DNA of 41,752 nucleotides, taken from IMG/VR virus record IMGVR_UViG_3300042391_000254, positions 1-41,752 of that record, one strand, 5' to 3'. This DNA is from a virus. The notes under the pieces are model-generated. The model searched no databases. It was not told the DNA's origin and saw only the letters and a program-made list of their open reading frames with translations. Made by a program: the position numbers and the translations under genes. How positions within the stretch are numbered: the stretch's first letter is position 1; each line of letters opens with the position of its first letter. Below, one piece after another: positions 8,714 to 39,400 of the stretch.

Positions 8714-8925
8714 TGACAATTGTAATCATAAGCGTTGCAGTCATCATCGCCACCATCATTGCAGTTGGATACACTCTAGACCTCAAAAGGGCTGGCTTTA
8801 AGTTCAAGTCCAAAGATGCAGACGGCGATGGATGGGTTCAAGAAGGAACCAAGTTTGAGCGTCGAGTAAATCCAGTAAAGAAGACAGCGAAGAAAGCAAC
8901 ACCTCGCAAGAAGGCAGGAAAATAA
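8713..8925 (+). CDS. Membrane protein with EF-hand-like loop and basic tail
   Basis: The 70-residue protein has an N-terminal transmembrane helix (about 2-22), then DADGDGWVQEGT, which has the D-x-D-x-D/G-G spacing of a calcium-binding loop, and a Lys/Arg/Ala-rich C-terminus. It lies directly before the endolysin with a start/stop overlap. A role in lysis control or in binding the cell wall through the basic tail is possible; the sequence does not settle it. Confidence 0.55.
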   Translation: MTIVIISVAVIIATIIAVGYTLDLKRAGFKFKSKDADGDGWVQEGTKFERRVNPVKKTAKKATPRKKAGK

Positions 8926-9437
8926 TGGGTCAAAGAGCAGACTTTATTGCAGTAGCACAAGGTGAACTTGGCGTCATTGAAGGACCTAAAGACAACGAGA
9001 CAAAGTATGGTGCTTTTACTAAGGCTAACTTCCAGCCTTGGTGTGGGTCATTTGTAAACTGGTGTGCTAACCAAATTGGATTAAAGATTCCTAACTGCGT
9101 ATATACACCAGCAGGAGCAAATGCATTTATGAAGAAAGACCAATGGGAGAAGGCGAGTGATGTAGCAACACCATTCCCAGGAGACATTGCGTTCTTCGAC
9201 TTCCCAGGAGATGGCGTAGACCGTATCTCACATATTGGTATTGTAGTAAAGGACAACGGAGACGGAACAGTTACCTGTATCGAAGGCAATACTGCCCCAG
9301 ATAAGAAGGGTGACCAACGCAACGGAGGGCAAGTTTGCCGTAAAGTGCGTGCGTTCAAAAAGAAGAACGGCTCCAAATTGAGAAGGTCTCAGACTGTATC
9401 CATTGTTGGGTTCGGAAAGCCAGCCTTCAAATCATAA
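8925..9437 (+). CDS. CHAP-domain endolysin (peptidoglycan hydrolase)
   Basis: The 170-residue enzyme has the N-terminal pattern QGELGVIEGPKDNETKYG seen in actinophage lysins. The nucleophile follows in PWCGSFVNWCAN (Cys about 40), and the general-base His in DRISHIGIVVKD (about 103), followed by IEGNT. CHAP domains cleave peptide cross-links or the amide bond of peptidoglycan. There is no separate wall-binding domain, but the C-terminal third is basic. It is the last gene of the rightward tail/lysis operon and is followed by a strong terminator. Confidence 0.9.
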   Translation: MGQRADFIAVAQGELGVIEGPKDNETKYGAFTKANFQPWCGSFVNWCANQIGLKIPNCVYTPAGANAFMKKDQWEKASDVATPFPGDIAFFDFPGDGVDRISHIGIVVKDNGDGTVTCIEGNTAPDKKGDQRNGGQVCRKVRAFKKKNGSKLRRSQTVSIVGFGKPAFKS

Positions 9438-14649: not shown

Positions 14650-15386
14650 AAACTATAGTCTGTATATCTGATTTACAAGTACCGTACCACGATGTAGAAG
14701 CAACCAAGGCTGTGGCTAGATTCATTAGAGACTACCAACCAGATACTGTTGTGTCCTGTGGTGACGAAATGGATATGCAGACTATCAGTAAGTGGTCAAA
14801 GGGTACTGAACTAGAGTATGAACGTTCTATTGGACGGGATAGAGACATGACTCGTCAAGTACTGTATGACTTAACTATCGAGCATATGATTCGTAGTAAT
14901 CATACAGATAGATTATTTAATACAGTTGCAATGCGAGCACCAGGATTACTTGGTCTACCAGAATTACAACTTGAAAACTTTCTTGGGTTAAAAGAACTAG
15001 GTATCCAATACCACACTGACCCTTATGAACTAGCCCCTGGCTGGTTACTCATGCATGGTGATGAAGGTAACGTACAACCTACCGCTGGCGCTACTGCATT
15101 AGGTTTAGCAAAACGCTCAGGCATGTCCGTAGTGTGTGGTCACACGCATCGAATGGGCTTGACTCATCATACTCAAAGTTATCGTGGTGGTAAACCTAAG
15201 ACTATCTGGGGATTAGAACTTGGTAACCTAATGGATTATCGCAATGCAAAATATATCAAGGCAGGGTTGTTCACATGGCAACAAGGCTTTGGTATCTTGC
15301 ATGTTGATGGCAAGACAGTTGTTCCACAACTTGTACCAATCGTAAACAATTCATTTACAGTAGAAGGAAAAACCTGGAGATGGTAG
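14646..15386 (+). CDS. Calcineurin-like metallophosphoesterase
   Basis: The 246-residue enzyme has the metal-binding motifs in order: SDLQVPYH (D9, H15; the canonical D-x-H has Gln in the His position), SCGDE (D40), a GNH-like RSNHTDR, MHGDEG, and CGHTHR. Phages carry such enzymes next to replication genes. Substrates may be nucleotides, nucleic-acid ends or phosphoproteins; sequence alone does not say. The changed first motif may alter metal preference. Confidence 0.75.
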   Translation: MKTIVCISDLQVPYHDVEATKAVARFIRDYQPDTVVSCGDEMDMQTISKWSKGTELEYERSIGRDRDMTRQVLYDLTIEHMIRSNHTDRLFNTVAMRAPGLLGLPELQLENFLGLKELGIQYHTDPYELAPGWLLMHGDEGNVQPTAGATALGLAKRSGMSVVCGHTHRMGLTHHTQSYRGGKPKTIWGLELGNLMDYRNAKYIKAGLFTWQQGFGILHVDGKTVVPQLVPIVNNSFTVEGKTWRW

Positions 15387-16069
15387 TCAGTTGGGACCGT
15401 ATTGAACCGTGGGATTACATCGTTTCACATGTTGCTGATGAATACAGCAAGAAGTATACAATGGTTGCCCGCGAAGATATCAAGCAGTCGCTCTATGAAT
15501 GGTTTGTGTCGCATCCTAAGAAGTTAGCAGAGTGGGAAGCATTCAGCAAAAAGTCTGCTCAGAACTTATTGTATCGTTCACTACGTAACCAAGCGCTGGA
15601 CTATTGCCAGTACTGGAAGGCTAAGTCATTAGGCTATGAGCCTTCTGATTTGTATTTCTATGAGCCAGAGATTGTTGAAGCCTTACTTCCTTCGATACTA
15701 CGCGGAGATGTAACAGATGCACCAGTGCTTAACTTAGGCATGCCTAGTAAGCCTTCTGCGCCAGCAGAGGGTGGTAATATGATGGCTATGATGGCTGAGA
15801 TTAAGGCTGCATATCTGAAATTAAATACAGAGGATAAACATATTCTTTACCACAAGTATGCAAACTCTTTGTCGTATGCTGGTATTGCAGAAGAACTCGC
15901 CTTACCTAGTGATGATGCTGCACGCATGAGACATAATCGTGCAATTAAAAAACTCATCACTAGGCTTGGCGGTTTTCGTTCTTATCTAGATAAAGACGAA
16001 ACAGAACAAGTAGGGCAAGACGAACCCGAACATAATGAAGATAGAGAACAAGGACAAGAATCCGATTAA
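15380..16069 (+). CDS. Sigma-factor-like protein
   Basis: In this 229-residue protein, residues about 30-85 (DIKQSLYEWF to RSLRNQALDYCQYW) resemble sigma region 2. Residues about 150-200 (DKHILYHKYANSLSYAGIAEEL, then RMRHNRAIKKLITRLGG) form a region-4-type helix-turn-helix. The C-terminus is acidic and low-complexity. Similar actinophage proteins are annotated as sigma-like. It may direct late transcription or adapt host RNA polymerase. It ends 7 bases before the convergent leftward block, with no terminator seen between them. Confidence 0.65.
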   Translation: MVVSWDRIEPWDYIVSHVADEYSKKYTMVAREDIKQSLYEWFVSHPKKLAEWEAFSKKSAQNLLYRSLRNQALDYCQYWKAKSLGYEPSDLYFYEPEIVEALLPSILRGDVTDAPVLNLGMPSKPSAPAEGGNMMAMMAEIKAAYLKLNTEDKHILYHKYANSLSYAGIAEELALPSDDAARMRHNRAIKKLITRLGGFRSYLDKDETEQVGQDEPEHNEDREQGQESD

Positions 16070-17020: not shown

Positions 17021-17413
17021 TTAGTACCAGTTATTCTTTTGATGGAACTTCCATGCCATACAAGGCGTGCCATATCTGTGCATGATATATGCAAAGCCTC
17101 TGTCAATTTGTAATGGTGCTGGTGTCTTCGGGTCCATCCCTAATACCTGAGGTATACCTCCAGCATTCTTCCCCATTACTTTTATCTTGTTGTATGCCTG
17201 ATGCCTCCAGTTGGACTCCTTTGTCCATAACTTGTGAAGACATCTGTACTGATTCTGTGACCACGCTAATACAACATCCTGAGCATAAGCCTTGCTATCT
17301 GCAATCTCCCATGCCCGTTCTGTTGTTGCTTTCTGCTCCATTCGGTTAGCCGAACGACTCATGAAACTTACCACCAGAATGATGACAAGTAAGAGTGCTA
17401 TCTTTTTGTACAT
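17021..17413 (-). CDS. Membrane-anchored lysozyme-like (transglycosylase-type) protein
   Basis: In this 130-residue protein, residues 4-18 are a hydrophobic signal-anchor and 25-55 a linker. Residues 56-130 match the actinobacterial lysozyme-like/SLT domain: QYRCLHKLWTKESNW with catalytic Glu66, GIPQVLGM, LQIDRGFAYIMHRYGTPCMAW, ending NNWY. C58 and C118 could form a disulfide outside the membrane. It is far from the lysis genes and is co-transcribed with WhiB. A role in local wall opening, or in altering the wall of the infected cell, is inferred. One palindrome copy lies in its 5' coding part. Confidence 0.75.
   Translation of the reverse strand: MYKKIALLLVIILVVSFMSRSANRMEQKATTERAWEIADSKAYAQDVVLAWSQNQYRCLHKLWTKESNWRHQAYNKIKVMGKNAGGIPQVLGMDPKTPAPLQIDRGFAYIMHRYGTPCMAWKFHQKNNWY
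17340..17355 (-). promoter_or_regulatory. 16-bp palindrome, copy 1
   Basis: ATTCGGTTAGCCGAAC on the plus strand, one arm base changed. It lies inside the 5' coding part of the lysozyme-like gene, just after the signal-anchor codons. Confidence 0.6.
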
Positions 17414-17414
17414 A

Positions 17415-17822
17415 CTACACCTCCAAGTAAGGTCTAACCCTGTTCAAGAATATCATTGCTGCTTCTTCTTCGTCAGCGGTTACCTTGTTACTAGGCCCCA
17501 CTTCATTTGTATATCTAGGTCCAACCTTCCTTCCTGTATTGTAAGGGTCAACACGATAGTCAAGACCCTGTTCCTTAGCGATTGCTATTCTCTGTCCAGA
17601 TAGTAAGCCACCCCAAATGCCATGGGCAAGGTTCTCGGGCTTCATACCTTCTTCCAAACACTTCTCACTGATGGGGCATCTATTGCATATGTCAATAGCA
17701 TACTTAATCATTGGAAGTGCTCGCTGTGTCATTGTAGGAACATTGCCGTTACCTATTGTAGGAAACCACGCATCAGGATTGTCATCTTGAGTACATAAGC
17801 CTCCAGTTAGTTGACTAATCAT
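17415..17822 (-). CDS. whiB: WhiB-family Fe-S transcription regulator
   Basis: The 135-residue protein has C10, then C46-x2-C49-x5-C55 (DICNRCPISEKCLEEGM), the four ligands of the WhiB [4Fe-4S] cluster, followed by the GIWGG turn (68-72) that contacts sigma region 4. A C-terminal segment with LSGQRIAIAKEQ and basic residues follows. WhiB proteins occur only in Actinobacteria and their phages and act on the host sigma factor SigA. Phage copies are known to alter host transcription, septation or superinfection. It overlaps the upstream small gene by 8 bases. Confidence 0.9.
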   Translation of the reverse strand: MISQLTGGLCTQDDNPDAWFPTIGNGNVPTMTQRALPMIKYAIDICNRCPISEKCLEEGMKPENLAHGIWGGLLSGQRIAIAKEQGLDYRVDPYNTGRKVGPRYTNEVGPSNKVTADEEEAAMIFLNRVRPYLEV

Positions 17823-18120: not shown

Positions 18121-18954
18121 CTACCACCCGAATGAACCGTCATAGTACCCTACCTTACCCTTTCTAGAGTTGTATGAGTACCTATCTGTCTCTGGTGTCC
18201 AGCATAGGCAAGTGTCATTGTATTGACCACTGCAATCATAGCAAGCCATACACATCTCACAGTAGTAAGGATTGGAATCCTCGAATGGTATAGACTTACA
18301 GTTGATACATTCTTCTTGCATGTAGTATGTTGAATCATCACTGAAGGCTGATGCAATAGCAGGTGTGCCTAAGTAAGTACTCCATGATGATTGCTTGTAG
18401 GTAGAGTTAGACCACCACATGCCATCATCATCCCAATGACCAGCATCTTCGTTGATGATGTAGCATGTCTCCTTAGCCTTAGGGTCTAGGGTGAAGATAA
18501 CAATCTTGCTACCTAGTGACCACTTGCTAACCATAGCCCACACATGGTCATCATCTAGCGCAGTAACTCCACCCATAGCAGGCAAAGTATCCTCTGCAAA
18601 GATACGCGTGTCACTACGACGGTCACCTGCACTGATGTTGATGTCTAGGACACCATTGTGTGCAAGATAGGTATCTCCACCAGAGTAAGGCACCGCGAAT
18701 GGGTGACAGTTCTCCTCATTCTTGACACCATGCGTAGCATAGCGAGCATGGAACATGGCATAACTATCTGGAAACTCCTTGCGTACTTCTAGGAATCTCT
18801 TGATTACTTTCTTGCTTGACATACCACGACCAGTGACAATGCCATTGGGCGTGATTACTGCAAAGCCGAAGCCATGCGGATTGTTACATGATGCACACTC
18901 CAAGTCTTTTCTCTTGGGTGTTGAGTTAGGTGATGCTACTACTAGTAAACACAT
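18121..18954 (-). CDS. Class II glutamine amidotransferase (Ntn hydrolase) with C-terminal Cys-rich domain
   Basis: In this 277-residue protein Cys2 becomes the N-terminal nucleophile after Met removal (MCLLVVAS). FHARYATHG (R71), LAHNGVLD (N100, G101) and SDTRIF (D115) are the glutaminase pocket of GATase II, which releases ammonia from glutamine. Residues 216-251 hold eight Cys in CxxC-type pairs (C216, 219, 232, 235, 238, 241, 249, 251), a likely zinc-binding module absent from metabolic amidotransferases. It starts in a TAATG overlap with the amidoligase stop, so ammonia is probably handed to that enzyme. The target is unknown. Confidence 0.85.
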   Translation of the reverse strand: MCLLVVASPNSTPKRKDLECASCNNPHGFGFAVITPNGIVTGRGMSSKKVIKRFLEVRKEFPDSYAMFHARYATHGVKNEENCHPFAVPYSGGDTYLAHNGVLDINISAGDRRSDTRIFAEDTLPAMGGVTALDDDHVWAMVSKWSLGSKIVIFTLDPKAKETCYIINEDAGHWDDDGMWWSNSTYKQSSWSTYLGTPAIASAFSDDSTYYMQEECINCKSIPFEDSNPYYCEMCMACYDCSGQYNDTCLCWTPETDRYSYNSRKGKVGYYDGSFGW

Positions 18955-20201
18955 TATGCACTCACATTCTGTTCGGCTAACCGAACGACTAGTCTATCTA
19001 TACGGGCTGAAAGTTCTGGGTATAGTGTCTCATTCTGAAATACATACCACATGAAGTTGTCTGCACTAAGCGCACCTTGTTGGATGTCTTGAACAGTAAG
19101 GGTTCGGGTGTACTCAACACTGGCATGTGCTAAGTCTAAATGGGCTTTGATAGTGTTACCGTTGACGCTACCTCGGAAGATACGCATCTCTAGTGTTGCT
19201 GCATTGTTGGTATTGACTGCTGAATAGCGGTCTGAATTATCTCTAGTGCTTAACTTGTGCTTGAAGGTACGCTTGCGGTCAATGATGAATCCGTCTCCGT
19301 CCCATACGCGGTCACCTTCACTATTGCGCCTGTAATCAGACTGAAAGATGTCAGTGAACTTAGCCCATTGGTCAGATGTCCGACCTGCTAGGGTTGAGTA
19401 GAAGTCAGGATTAGAATAGACAAGATTCAAGAAGCGGTGCATGTGTGCGCCACCAGTGAATCCTGTGCGTGAGATGTGAATGTGTAAGCCACAGGTACGA
19501 GTATTCCATGACTTAACTCTCATGCCATTTTTAGTGCGTAAGTCTTCTAGTATTGCCCAGAAGTCTCCAGCCTCATTCTTGAAGAAGTCATGGGACATAG
19601 GGTGTGTGACTATCTCGAAACCATCACTGAGAGAGCCGTCATTCTTTAGATAGGCTAAGTCCATGTTCTCTAGTTGATAGGCGTGCATGGCTGAGTCAGA
19701 TTTACTATCCCAGCCTTCTACTTCTATCTCTATACCAAAGAATAGGCGCTCATCCTTGCTAGTGCTATGGAAGATAGCATCAGGTCGGTAGTTATAGTCA
19801 TGAATAATACGATTACCATTGTAAGTATTCTCTGAGCATGAATCACATCCTTCTGCATTCCATTCATCACAGTCCTCACAATAGTAAGCATTATCTAGGC
19901 AACCGTTGCACCAGTCCTCACCTCTGTCACTTACATAGGACGAGCCATCAGAGTTATGCTCCTCACAGGAGTCGCACCAACATGCAGCCCTTTCAATGCA
20001 ACTCTCACACCATGTGTAGAAGCCATCTACCATGTTGAATGAATCATTGACTGAACCTATCGTATCGCAACGCTGGCAAACTTGAATGCAATCGTTGCAT
20101 ACTATGTCATTCCATTCTGTGATGACTAAGTTTTCTTCTTCAGTTTCGTATGAACATACTGAACAACTGCTTTGAACAACATCATCAACATTATCTGTCA
20201 T
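18954..20201 (-). CDS. Amidoligase (COOH-NH2 ligase) with N-terminal array of CxxC zinc motifs
   Basis: In this 415-residue protein, residues 1-122 hold 17 Cys, including eight CxxC pairs (13/16, 35/38, 42/45, 65/68, 76/79, 98/101, 108/111, 119/122). Residues about 150-400 are an amidoligase domain of the glutamine-synthetase/GCS fold: FFGIEIEVEG (154-163), KNDGSLSDGFEIVTHP (186-201), CGLHIHIS (237-244) and a late TLEMRIFRGS. These carry the acidic and His/Arg residues for Mg-ATP. The family joins a carboxyl to an amine or ammonia. It is coupled to the amidotransferase. A palindrome and a promoter lie upstream, and a second palindrome lies in its last codons. Confidence 0.85.
   Translation of the reverse strand: MTDNVDDVVQSSCSVCSYETEEENLVITEWNDIVCNDCIQVCQRCDTIGSVNDSFNMVDGFYTWCESCIERAACWCDSCEEHNSDGSSYVSDRGEDWCNGCLDNAYYCEDCDEWNAEGCDSCSENTYNGNRIIHDYNYRPDAIFHSTSKDERLFFGIEIEVEGWDSKSDSAMHAYQLENMDLAYLKNDGSLSDGFEIVTHPMSHDFFKNEAGDFWAILEDLRTKNGMRVKSWNTRTCGLHIHISRTGFTGGAHMHRFLNLVYSNPDFYSTLAGRTSDQWAKFTDIFQSDYRRNSEGDRVWDGDGFIIDRKRTFKHKLSTRDNSDRYSAVNTNNAATLEMRIFRGSVNGNTIKAHLDLAHASVEYTRTLTVQDIQQGALSADNFMWYVFQNETLYPELSARIDRLVVRLAEQNVSA
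18971..18986 (-). promoter_or_regulatory. 16-bp palindrome, copy 3
   Basis: GTTCGGCTAACCGAAC on the plus strand, with both arms perfect. It lies in the last codons of the amidoligase gene and 16 bases before the amidotransferase start. Confidence 0.7.
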
Positions 20202-20263: not shown

Positions 20264-20292
20264 AGTCTACTTTGTAACTAAGTTTTTGTCAA
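20264..20292 (-). promoter_or_regulatory. Promoter for the amidoligase/WhiB operon
   Basis: On the minus strand there is TTGACA (20292-20287), a 17-base spacer starting AAAACTTA, and TAGACT (20269-20264). The spacer start and both hexamers match the promoter at 21266-21294. The predicted start near 20257 puts the palindrome 20217-20232 in the leader. Confidence 0.7.
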
Positions 20293-21265: not shown

Positions 21266-21294
21266 AGTCTAGCATCTAAATAAGTTTTTGTCTA
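21266..21294 (-). promoter_or_regulatory. Promoter for the small-gene operon
   Basis: On the minus strand there is TAGACA (21294-21289), a 17-base spacer starting AAAACTTA, and TAGACT (21271-21266). Palindromes flank it: one 4 bases upstream of the -35 (21299-21314) and one in the leader (21205-21220). Confidence 0.7.
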
Positions 21295-21452: not shown

Positions 21453-22055
21453 TTACGCGCTTGCCATCTTGTAACTTATAGTTGATTCGATTTCGGCAAT
21501 GTAGCCTTCTTCGATTTCGGTAAGGCTTGCCATGTCTAGCGCGGTGATGTAGGCGAGGATAGATTTCAAGGTTTCCTCGTTAGACTTTGGCGCTTTGGCT
21601 TGCTTGGATGATGTCTCACCCTTTGACCCTTTATCATTCTTGGCTTTGCGGATAGTTGCGATTTCCTTTTGGAGCGCATCTAGGGTTTTGATTTGCTCAC
21701 CATTTCCCGCACCTAAAAGGTCATAGGAAGCGGAAGCGGTGGATAGTTGCTTGGCGATAGGTAGGGCGCGAAAGTCAGCGTGTAGGGCGCGTAACTTTGA
21801 CCATGTTGGGAGCGCGGGAGCGTGACTAGACTTAATGAATGATGACACCTTGCCACCATCCTCTAGGCCTTTGATAAATCGCTTTTGGTCACTTACCGAT
21901 AAGCGAGATTCAAGAACCATGACGGCTGAAAGATTTTCAATCGCTTTCACGATTTCGTTCTCACTCTTTGCTGATGTTGAACATACGCCATTCCATGCTG
22001 TTGCAATCTTTGGCGCTGATAGTACTGGTTTTACTGTCTTTGCTGTTGTTGCCAT
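21453..22055 (-). CDS. Unknown 200-residue Ala/Lys/Ser-rich protein, monocistronic
   Basis: The protein starts MATTAKTVKPVLSAPKIATAW. The first 110 residues are helical with SDQKRFIKGLEDGGKVSSFI, followed by a basic low-complexity linker (KAKNDKGSKGETSSKQAKAPKS is in this region) and a C-terminal helix pair ending ISYKMASA. I recognise no domain and no helix-turn-helix. It has its own palindrome 18 bases upstream, a good ribosome-binding site and its own strong terminator. This separate control suggests an abundant early or regulatory protein. Its G+C-rich codons differ from neighbouring genes. Confidence 0.65.
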   Translation of the reverse strand: MATTAKTVKPVLSAPKIATAWNGVCSTSAKSENEIVKAIENLSAVMVLESRLSVSDQKRFIKGLEDGGKVSSFIKSSHAPALPTWSKLRALHADFRALPIAKQLSTASASYDLLGAGNGEQIKTLDALQKEIATIRKAKNDKGSKGETSSKQAKAPKSNEETLKSILAYITALDMASLTEIEEGYIAEIESTISYKMASA

Positions 22056-26403: not shown

Positions 26404-26970
26404 ATGACAACGCTGGTAGCGATACAAGGTGACGGTTGGTCGGTACTAGGGTGCGATTCACGTTTAAGTGATGACAATGGTCGATTCCAAATTAGTAAGA
26501 CTCCAAAGATTGTTGAAAACAATAGTGTATTAATTGCTGGATGCGGTTCTTCTCGCGCCAGTAACATATTACATTATGGATACATTCAGCCTAAGCCAAC
26601 TGCAAAAGAAGATTTAAATGCCTACATGACGCAAAAGTTCATTCCAGAAATGCGAAAGAACTTTATAGATGCTGGTATTGACATGAAAGAGGACGGCGAT
26701 GTTGCACAAATTGATGGGGGATTCCTCGTCTCAGTCAAAGGTCAAGTATTCTCGGTTTCTGAAGATTACTCTTGGGATACCGATATTCGTAATGTATATG
26801 TTATGGGTAGTGGCGGCGATGTTGCCCTCGGTGCATTGGCAGCGTTGGGTGTGGAAAAAGTAAAGACAATTAATCAAGCAGAGACAATGATTCGTAAGGC
26901 AATTGCTATTGCAATTCGATACGACAATATGTGCTCTGAACCAATTCATATTTTTAGACAATTTAAGTAG
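26404..26970 (+). CDS. Proteasome beta/HslV-like Ntn hydrolase, likely head maturation protease
   Basis: The 188-residue protein starts MTTLVAIQGDG. After Met removal Thr1 is the proteasome-type nucleophile, with Asp17 and Arg19 (LGCDSR) and Lys34 in SKTPKIVEN, close to the catalytic Lys33, then the AG turn (VLIAGCGSS) and a C-terminal GGDVALGALAAL plus helices. Its position between portal and the scaffold/capsid genes is that of a prohead protease. A threonine-type protease in that slot would differ from the usual serine (ClpP/S78-like) enzymes. It could instead target host proteins. Confidence 0.8.
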   Translation: MTTLVAIQGDGWSVLGCDSRLSDDNGRFQISKTPKIVENNSVLIAGCGSSRASNILHYGYIQPKPTAKEDLNAYMTQKFIPEMRKNFIDAGIDMKEDGDVAQIDGGFLVSVKGQVFSVSEDYSWDTDIRNVYVMGSGGDVALGALAALGVEKVKTINQAETMIRKAIAIAIRYDNMCSEPIHIFRQFK

Positions 26971-38638: not shown

Positions 38639-38656
38639 CTAGAAAAGGTGGGGACA

Positions 38657-39400
38657 ATGGCACAAGAAACAGTATCAATCGCATGGTGTGACAATGGAAT
38701 GGTTGATGGCAAATTTATGCAAGGCGTCTGTGACGTTATGCTTAAGTCTGGTATTGAGTTTAAATCAACACTAAGAAGCCAGGGCAATCAGATTGCTCGC
38801 CAACGCGAAACAGTAATAACTTATTGGTACGACAAAACAGACACAGAGTGGTTACTTTGGGTAGATTCAGATGTAGTTATCAGCCCAGAAAAATTTAAAT
38901 TACTGTGGGATAATAGAGATGCAAAAGAGCGTCCTATCCTCACTGGAGTTTACTTTACTACTGATACACCAGAAGAACCTTTGATGATTCCTATGCCAAC
39001 TGTATTTAATTTTACAGATGGAGAGGATGGCGGGTTTGGTTTATCCAGAGTACATCCACTTCCTAAGAATGAATTAATTAAAATTGATGCTGCTGGCATG
39101 GGCTTCGTCCTAATGCATCGCAGTGTTGTAGAACGCATTCGTGCAGTTCTCCCTGATGCTCAACTGTTTATGGAAATGGGTAGAGGAGCAAAGTTTATCG
39201 GAGAAGATATCTACTTCTTCGCACTATGCAACCAGGTAGAAATTCCATTGTATTGCCACACTGGAGCAACCGCACCACATATGAAGCGGTTCTCTTTTGA
39301 TGAGCACTACTACCAAGCATTTTTCGGTGGGGCTAAAGAAGAAAAGAAATCTAATTTAATCTTGCCAAAGCAAGGGTTAATTAAACCTAAGAAGGGTTAA
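38657..39400 (+). CDS. GT-A glycosyltransferase-like protein in the structural operon
   Basis: ATG 38657 has GGTGG 5 bases upstream. The 247-residue product has the nucleotide-sugar pattern EWLLWVDSDVVISP, with DxD at D70 and D72, RERPILTGVYFTT-like and DAAGMGFVLMHRSV segments, and a late FIGEDIYFF acidic motif, all of the GT-A fold. It lies between virion genes, so the target may be capsid or tail protein. Glycosylated virions are known for some actinophages. Confidence 0.75.
   Translation: MAQETVSIAWCDNGMVDGKFMQGVCDVMLKSGIEFKSTLRSQGNQIARQRETVITYWYDKTDTEWLLWVDSDVVISPEKFKLLWDNRDAKERPILTGVYFTTDTPEEPLMIPMPTVFNFTDGEDGGFGLSRVHPLPKNELIKIDAAGMGFVLMHRSVVERIRAVLPDAQLFMEMGRGAKFIGEDIYFFALCNQVEIPLYCHTGATAPHMKRFSFDEHYYQAFFGGAKEEKKSNLILPKQGLIKPKKG

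Follow-up and report, generated by a model that had tools for sequence, protein, structure and literature searches.

The locus described here raises the question of what a phage does with an amidoligase and a class-II glutamine amidotransferase (GAT) that are encoded one directly after the other, and that each carry a cysteine array. It lies within a stretch of viral DNA of 41,752 nucleotides (IMG/VR record IMGVR_UViG_3300042391_000254), which is referred to below as the window. Phage annotations have included amidoligase and GAT pairs for over fifteen years, with a single guess as to their function, namely wall amidation against superinfection. The clade to which this locus belongs offers the pair in a minimal form, with two genes, one putative promoter and strict pairing, and has relatives in actinobacterial phages and in clostridial elements.

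The features of the locus are listed in Table 1. Both genes are on the minus strand, and the junction between them reads GCATAATGTG, in which the TAA stop codon of the amidoligase and the ATG start codon of the GAT have one base in common (TAATG). The amidoligase matches the Pfam family Amidoligase_2 (PF12224) with E=3e-8 and 34.3 bits, against a curated cut-off of 22, and belongs to PHROG 16683. The GAT matches GATase_4 (PF13230; E=1.1e-6, over its cut-off) and belongs to PHROG 25883 (E=2.6e-34). Both PHROG families are without an assigned function. An initial annotation, made from the sequence alone, had described these two reading frames, their TAATG coupling and a set of catalytic motifs, all of which were found.

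Table 1. Positions of the amidoligase/GAT pair and associated features in the window.
Feature	Position	Strand	Details
Lysozyme/transglycosylase-like protein	17021..17413	minus	PHROG 15428 E=1.6e-23, PHROG 12661 'transglycosylase' E=1.6e-19; in 70/70 relatives
WhiB-like protein	17415..17822	minus	PF02467 E=1.5e-9; in 73/73 relatives
Palindrome directly behind GAT stop codon	18105..18118		One of eight window copies
Class-II glutamine amidotransferase (GAT)	18121..18954	minus	277 aa; C2 nucleophile, R71, N100-G101, D115
GAT C-terminal 8-Cys array, residues 216-251	18199..18309	minus	C-x2-C-x12-C-x2-C-x2-C-x2-C-x7-C-x-C; low pLDDT
Amidoligase_2 enzyme	18954..20201	minus	415 aa; Cys array residues 13-122 and GS-fold catalytic domain ~148-415
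Palindrome in amidoligase 3' end	18972..18985		~17 bp ahead of GAT start
Amidoligase N-terminal array	19836..20165	minus	Four CxxC...CxxC units of treble-clef/LIM-like type, presumably with one Zn site each
Operator-like palindrome TTCGGYTARCCGAA	20218..20231		Separates promoter-like site from amidoligase start codon; syntenic in relatives
Promoter-like TTGACA-N17-TAGACT	20264..20292	minus	Upstream of amidoligase
Candidate regulator	21453..22055	minus	200 aa; palindrome copy directly upstream of gene

The structure of the amidoligase was predicted with AlphaFold from 57 clade sequences (mean pLDDT 86.9, pTM 0.68). The top solved structures found by Foldseek with this model were glutamine synthetases, Dop and YbdK, and structural alignment gave Z scores of 12.0 for 1tt4, 11.9 for YbdK, 11.7 for human glutamine synthetase (GS) and 11.3 for glutamate-cysteine ligase. 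These matches fall in residues 148-415, while the N-terminal 125 residues are barely covered by the fold search. When the model was compared with viral models, the top matches were phage amidoligases, and the match at rank 7 was annotated 'LIM domain containing'. The catalytic residues are invariant across the 57 aligned sequences; E158, E160, D188, E196, H240, H242, R325, E338 and R340 are 100% conserved in the deep set, in which many pairs have only 20-30% identity. The protein is thus predicted to have a glutamine-synthetase fold with the conserved acidic, HxH and Arg residues of an amidoligase, and its activity would be that of an ATP-dependent carboxylate-amine ligase. A profile search of the PDB gave no meaningful close sequence match; that search returned mainly casein kinases, with E values of 0.07 or worse, which are taken as chance.

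The GAT model has a pLDDT of 69, and its tail is disordered. Residues 2-195 align with GlmS (1xff) and EgtC, both at Z 12.2, and with PurF at Z 12.0. The residues M1-C2, H69/R71, H99-N100-G101 and D115 are invariant in the clade (52 aligned sequences), and in the deep set R71, H99, N100 and G101 are 100% conserved and C2 94%. By its motifs (Cys after Met, HxR, HNG, Asp) and the Ntn-hydrolase glutaminase fold of the model, the protein is a class-II GAT. It would be expected to act as a glutaminase, with the reservation that the non-donor EgtC scores as well as GlmS. The predicted folds of both proteins, together with the families and the conserved catalytic residues, bear out the identities originally proposed. 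The GAT domain has further clade-conserved cysteines at 20, 23, 83 and 164 besides the nucleophile, and these are perhaps an additional metal site.

The two genes are found together almost without exception. The search gave 26 amidoligase loci, of which two have no GAT, both stopping at a contig border, and 80 GAT loci, of which four have no amidoligase, on contigs that start inside the GAT. Every clade relative with a long enough contig has both genes, in the order amidoligase-GAT, with a spacing of -1 to +4 nt in most loci. Co-occurrence had been suggested at the outset as a check on the pair, and the genes are adjacent in all testable viral relatives of the clade. Both are also present in 19 cluster S mycobacteriophages, MEP401/402, ctgrD200, the fragment MT839723 and a Mycobacteroides element, with adjacency preserved in cluster S and in the Mycobacteroides element, and they lie side by side in three further viral records. 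A scan of viral sequences with Marvin gp105 as query gave two loci only. One short viral contig (L141:136-2203) has the genes in reversed order, GAT then amidoligase, and its ligase has a Cys-rich N-terminus.

No homologues were found in cellular genomes using alignment A1, and it took a search with the L115 ligase to retrieve those in Clostridia. Both genes are present at 22 of the 24 clostridial loci, and the remaining two loci end near the ligase. The clostridial ligases are 26-31% identical to the phage amidoligase, and the clostridial GATs 17-19% identical to the phage GAT. Faster evolution of the GAT in Clostridia or its replacement would account for this, and a partner was retained either way. 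That the slot is kept although its occupant is so different argues for a functional need. Many of these loci (L116-L139) have a serine resolvase-type recombinase downstream of the GAT, with relaxase, integrase and DUF3846 genes nearby, and mobile elements thus seem to carry the clostridial pair as well. Pairing has one clear exception: phage/plasmid DNA of C. difficile encodes an amidoligase without an array, and a search of the whole record gave no match to a GAT. Not all ligases of this family therefore need ammonia derived from a partner. Ligase and GAT distances are correlated, with r = 0.88 over all pairs, but r drops to 0.27 in pairs with less than 40% ligase identity, and the correlation was set aside as proof that the enzymes interact.

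The initial annotation had counted 17 cysteines at the N-terminus of the amidoligase and eight at the C-terminus of the GAT, which is correct, and they are mostly invariant. The 17 are within residues 13-122, and 16 of them belong to four CxxC...CxxC units (Cys 13/16/35/38, 42/45/65/68, 76/79/98/101 and 108/111/119/122). Among distinct relatives, conservation is about 100% for Cys 13, 16, 35, 38, 42, 45, 65, 68, 76, 98, 101, 108, 111 and 119, 88% for C79 and 72% for C122; for C74, which is outside the units, it is 2%. All eight cysteines of the GAT tail are 100% conserved in the clade. Such conservation in distinct relatives indicates that the arrays are not a matter of chance. In the deep set, C108 and C111 are 100% conserved and C45 94%, and since the first two belong to the last unit, the one adjoining the catalytic domain, this is apparently the only ancestral unit of the amidoligase array. 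Outside their cysteines the arrays are less well conserved than the domains that they are attached to: identity is 47% in the amidoligase array compared to 63% in its catalytic domain, and 64% in the GAT tail compared to 81% in its Ntn domain.

The N-terminal 125 residues of the amidoligase are predicted to form repeated hairpin-hairpin-helix units about the CxxC pairs, which fits treble-clef fingers, and the spacing of the cysteines suggests that both arrays bind zinc. A true LIM domain was considered for residues 13-68, using the pattern C-x2-C-x16-23-[CH]-x2-C-x2-C-x2-C-x16-21-C-x2-C together with a Pfam match. It was rejected, as the fingers are separated by x3 where the pattern has x2, and there is no Pfam LIM match at E up to 1. 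The array is LIM-like only, and it is a structurally similar phage protein that carries the 'LIM domain containing' annotation.

It had also been suggested that the two arrays match, and that they could join the enzymes. Both are indeed zinc-type arrays, but their likeness is weak: a profile comparison of one array with the other gave a Cys-driven match over 29 columns with a probability of 57-79%, and homology between them is not relied on here. The array of the amidoligase varies in size, from none in C. difficile and about 6-8 cysteines in Mycobacteroides and Marvin up to 13-17. The 8-Cys arrangement of the GAT tail was seen only in the clade, Marvin, L141 and the Mycobacteroides element, and the GATs of Clostridia, MEP401 and ctgrD200 have no Cys tail yet are still paired with an amidoligase. 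As a general rule, the suggestion that the arrays are the glue that defines the pair is therefore rejected. The pair can do without the GAT tail, and the role of adapters suits the arrays better.

The initial annotation drew attention to the neighbours of the pair, and both a WhiB gene and a lysozyme-like gene are present; of 75 orthologues of the lysozyme-like protein, 71 have a hydrophobic N-terminus. A sigma-factor-like protein (15380-16069; PHROG 354 'sigma-K factor', E=3.5e-16) is encoded convergent to the operon, in 65 of 65 relatives, and the terminase is likewise an invariable neighbour (39 of 39). With these four constant neighbours, the pair is located in a core syntenic block and is not a recent insertion. 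The invariable lysozyme-like neighbour with its hydrophobic N-terminus fits a role at the envelope; since this gene is part of the fixed syntenic core, its presence is weak evidence for such a role. It is distinct from the endolysin-like gene at 8925-9437, and it has a palindrome just behind the codons for the hydrophobic segment. Elsewhere in the window, an HslV-family (Ntn) peptidase-like gene directly after the portal gene (26404-26970) is probably a capsid maturation protease, and a glycosyltransferase-like gene near the right end (38648-39400, PHROG 34859) is a possible further envelope-modifying gene. The 21 clade genomes contain neither a gamma-glutamyl cyclotransferase (GGCT; PF06094), which the same profile does find in the L111 and L112 records, nor a COOH-NH2 ligase (PF14395), nor a tyrosine integrase. 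PHROG scans of the main window ORFs named no ATP-grasp enzyme.

The pair also has control sites of which the initial annotation made no mention. It is preceded by a promoter-like element, and a similar element occurs in the same place in about 25 relatives, 29-47 nt ahead of the palindrome that precedes the amidoligase start. The claim of a promoter is based on this comparison and not on a scan of the window, which found no enrichment (14 elements compared to 14.9 expected). A near-repeated promoter-like cassette (GACAAAAACTTA...TAGACT) is present at 20264-20292 and at 21266-21294, in each case before a palindrome. The palindrome has eight exact copies in the window, where 0.25 would be expected with up to two mismatches. 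All eight (14-16 bp) are between 17341 and 22088, in mostly start-associated, syntenic places. A search for RNA families gave no match.

The sequence of the palindrome differs between the genomes of relatives, and is uniform at all sites of one genome. Variants include GTTCGGYTARCCGAAC, GTCGGGTTAGCCCGAC, GGTCGGCYAGCCGACC, GTTCGTGTAAACGAAC and ATCCGTTTAAACGGAT, and there are at least seven classes. The 200-residue protein encoded behind one of the copies has no significant Pfam or PHROG match. Its identity is 0.70 within palindrome classes and 0.35 between them, which none of 1000 shuffles reached, while for nine other genes the difference is 0.08 or less. The 24 genomes compared are related to one another, and the shuffles therefore treat them as more independent than they are; moreover, the protein was chosen from these same genomes by its place behind the palindrome. 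A stronger argument is how much it differs in this respect from the other genes. It is concluded that this protein is probably the regulator that reads the palindromes, and that the two together are possibly a new system for switching repressor-operator specificity. The logic is similar to that of stoperator and repressor divergence in cluster A mycobacteriophages (PMC6550527), except that here the sites are palindromic and the protein has no family match. Palindromes that switch fast, and apparently control the pair, may also interest those who study phage immunity more widely.

The explanation that we favour, and to which we give about an even chance, is that the pair is a two-component glutamine-dependent amidotransferase with its own promoter and gated by a regulator, whose likeliest substrate is a carboxylate of the cell wall. 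The GAT would hydrolyse glutamine at Cys2 and release ammonia; the GS-fold amidoligase would spend ATP to turn a carboxylate into an activated acyl phosphate, and attack by the ammonia would give the amide. The zinc-type arrays would be adapter modules, which recognise the substrate or the partner, or hold the complex. Transcription would start at the pair's own promoter, and would be gated by the phage regulator bound to the palindrome downstream of it. With a cell-wall precursor as substrate, the effect of the pair would be to edit the envelope of the host while it is infected or carries the phage, and this may be its benefit to the phage. Wall precursors are favoured because of the lysozyme-like neighbour and the precedent of MurT/GatD, in which a glutaminase partner and an ATP-dependent ligase amidate a carboxylate of peptidoglycan.

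The initial annotation called the pair a complete ammonia-dependent ligase, which is a reasonable inference, but the same folds would suit a ligase and de-glutamylase of the EgtA/EgtC type. EgtC and glutamate-cysteine ligase match the models about as well, which makes a make-and-break gamma-glutamyl pair the main chemical rival. In such a pair, the ligase would attach glutamate or another amino acid to an amine, and a gamma-glutamyl group would be taken off by the Ntn enzyme. EgtC is level with GlmS as the best match of the GAT (Z 12.2), YbdK (Z 11.9) and glutamate-cysteine ligase (11.3) are among the best matches of the amidoligase, and fuller phage cassettes include a GGCT (PMC3890496; L111 record). 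We consider this unlikely, given that no further enzyme of such a pathway was found, with GGCT and COOH-NH2 ligase absent from 21 of 21 genomes, and that the order of motifs in the GAT is that of ordinary class-II GATs. It is also rather improbable that the arrays direct the two enzymes to a protein of the host (or phage), for example a transcription or defence factor, in which carboxylates of side chains or of the C-terminus are amidated. Treble-clef and LIM-like modules commonly bind proteins; the amidoligase array diverges faster than the catalytic domain while its cysteines stay fixed (47% compared to 63% identity), as expected of a module that faces a target; and relatives occur in plasmids, near resolvase, relaxase and integrase genes, where work on the wall is less obvious. 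However, treble clefs also bind nucleic acids or act structurally. In a more elaborate version, which is decidedly unlikely, amidation would be phage-controlled: the arrays on both enzymes would pick out a host protein, which is then inactivated by amidation of its carboxylates, and the repressor-operator gating would change its DNA specificity as one unit from one related phage to another.

Two further explanations take the pair away from both wall and protein. Class-II GAT domains function in the 7-deazaguanine DNA modification of some phages, and the pair might therefore amidate a modified nucleobase in hypermodified phage DNA, by chemistry like that of Gat-QueC. This is extremely unlikely: no base-hypermodification genes were named among the window ORFs scanned, and the ligase is of the carboxylate-amine type, without a QueC-like domain. 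Auxiliary metabolism of nitrogen or amino acids is very unlikely; it has been proposed for a Planctomycetes phage that encodes an amidoligase and a GAT along with glutathione synthase and GGCT. An effect of this phage, Phage-ZRK32, on growth with nitrate or ammonium has been published, and a role of such genes in nitrogen metabolism suggested (PMC10945688), but that work used the whole phage and not these genes, and the explanation does not account for the conserved zinc-type Cys arrays, the promoter or the operator-like site.

A cell-wall amidotransferase, the reading preferred here, resembles several known systems without being identical to any. The analogy with MurT/GatD is one of a glutaminase working with an ATP-dependent ligase; membership of that system was rejected, since MurT/GatD combines a Mur-ligase-like enzyme with a class-I-type GatD, whereas the folds here are GS and class-II Ntn. 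EgtA/EgtC, from the ergothioneine pathway, also combines a GS-fold ligase with a class-II-like Ntn enzyme, but EgtC removes a gamma-glutamyl group and there are no zinc arrays. The clostridial pair (L116-L139, L115) has a Cys-array amidoligase followed at once by a class-II GAT, usually overlapping; it differs in that the GAT is of another subfamily, has no Cys tail, and is often beside a serine recombinase and mobile-element genes.

Among phages, the peptidoglycan modification cassette of phiEco32, LUZ24, tf, UFV-P2, RIO-1 and PSA-HP1 likewise has an Amidoligase_2 and a class-II GAT among the early genes. As given by citing papers, it was described by Iyer et al. 2009 and Hardies et al. 2013, and for podoviruses it is described in PMC5498523 and PMC11945000, with a gene list in PMC3890496. 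It adds GGCT, ATP-grasp and COOH-NH2 ligase genes (PMC3890496, PMC5498523), of which GGCT and COOH-NH2 ligase are missing in the 21 clade genomes. The involvement of such genes in envelope remodelling or superinfection exclusion is a published prediction, as cited in PMC10580990, PMC5498523 and PMC11945000; as quoted in PMC10580990, the idea was put forward for the phiEco32 pair, and the Marvin pair was linked to secondary metabolites and phage-host interaction. A close parallel is Marvin gp105/gp106, with those of other cluster S mycobacteriophages, which has the same gene order, Cys arrays on both proteins and the same 8-Cys GAT tail. It differs in having 31-34% identity, about eight N-terminal cysteines in the ligase, a gap between the genes, and unannotated neighbours. 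Since relatives of Marvin can be cultivated in M. smegmatis, the question raised here is directly testable. What is new, as far as the tools used here show, is the occurrence of the two-gene form across a large phage clade, with arrays on both partners, the retention of a very divergent GAT in Clostridia, and the presence of promoter-like and operator-like sites dedicated to the pair.
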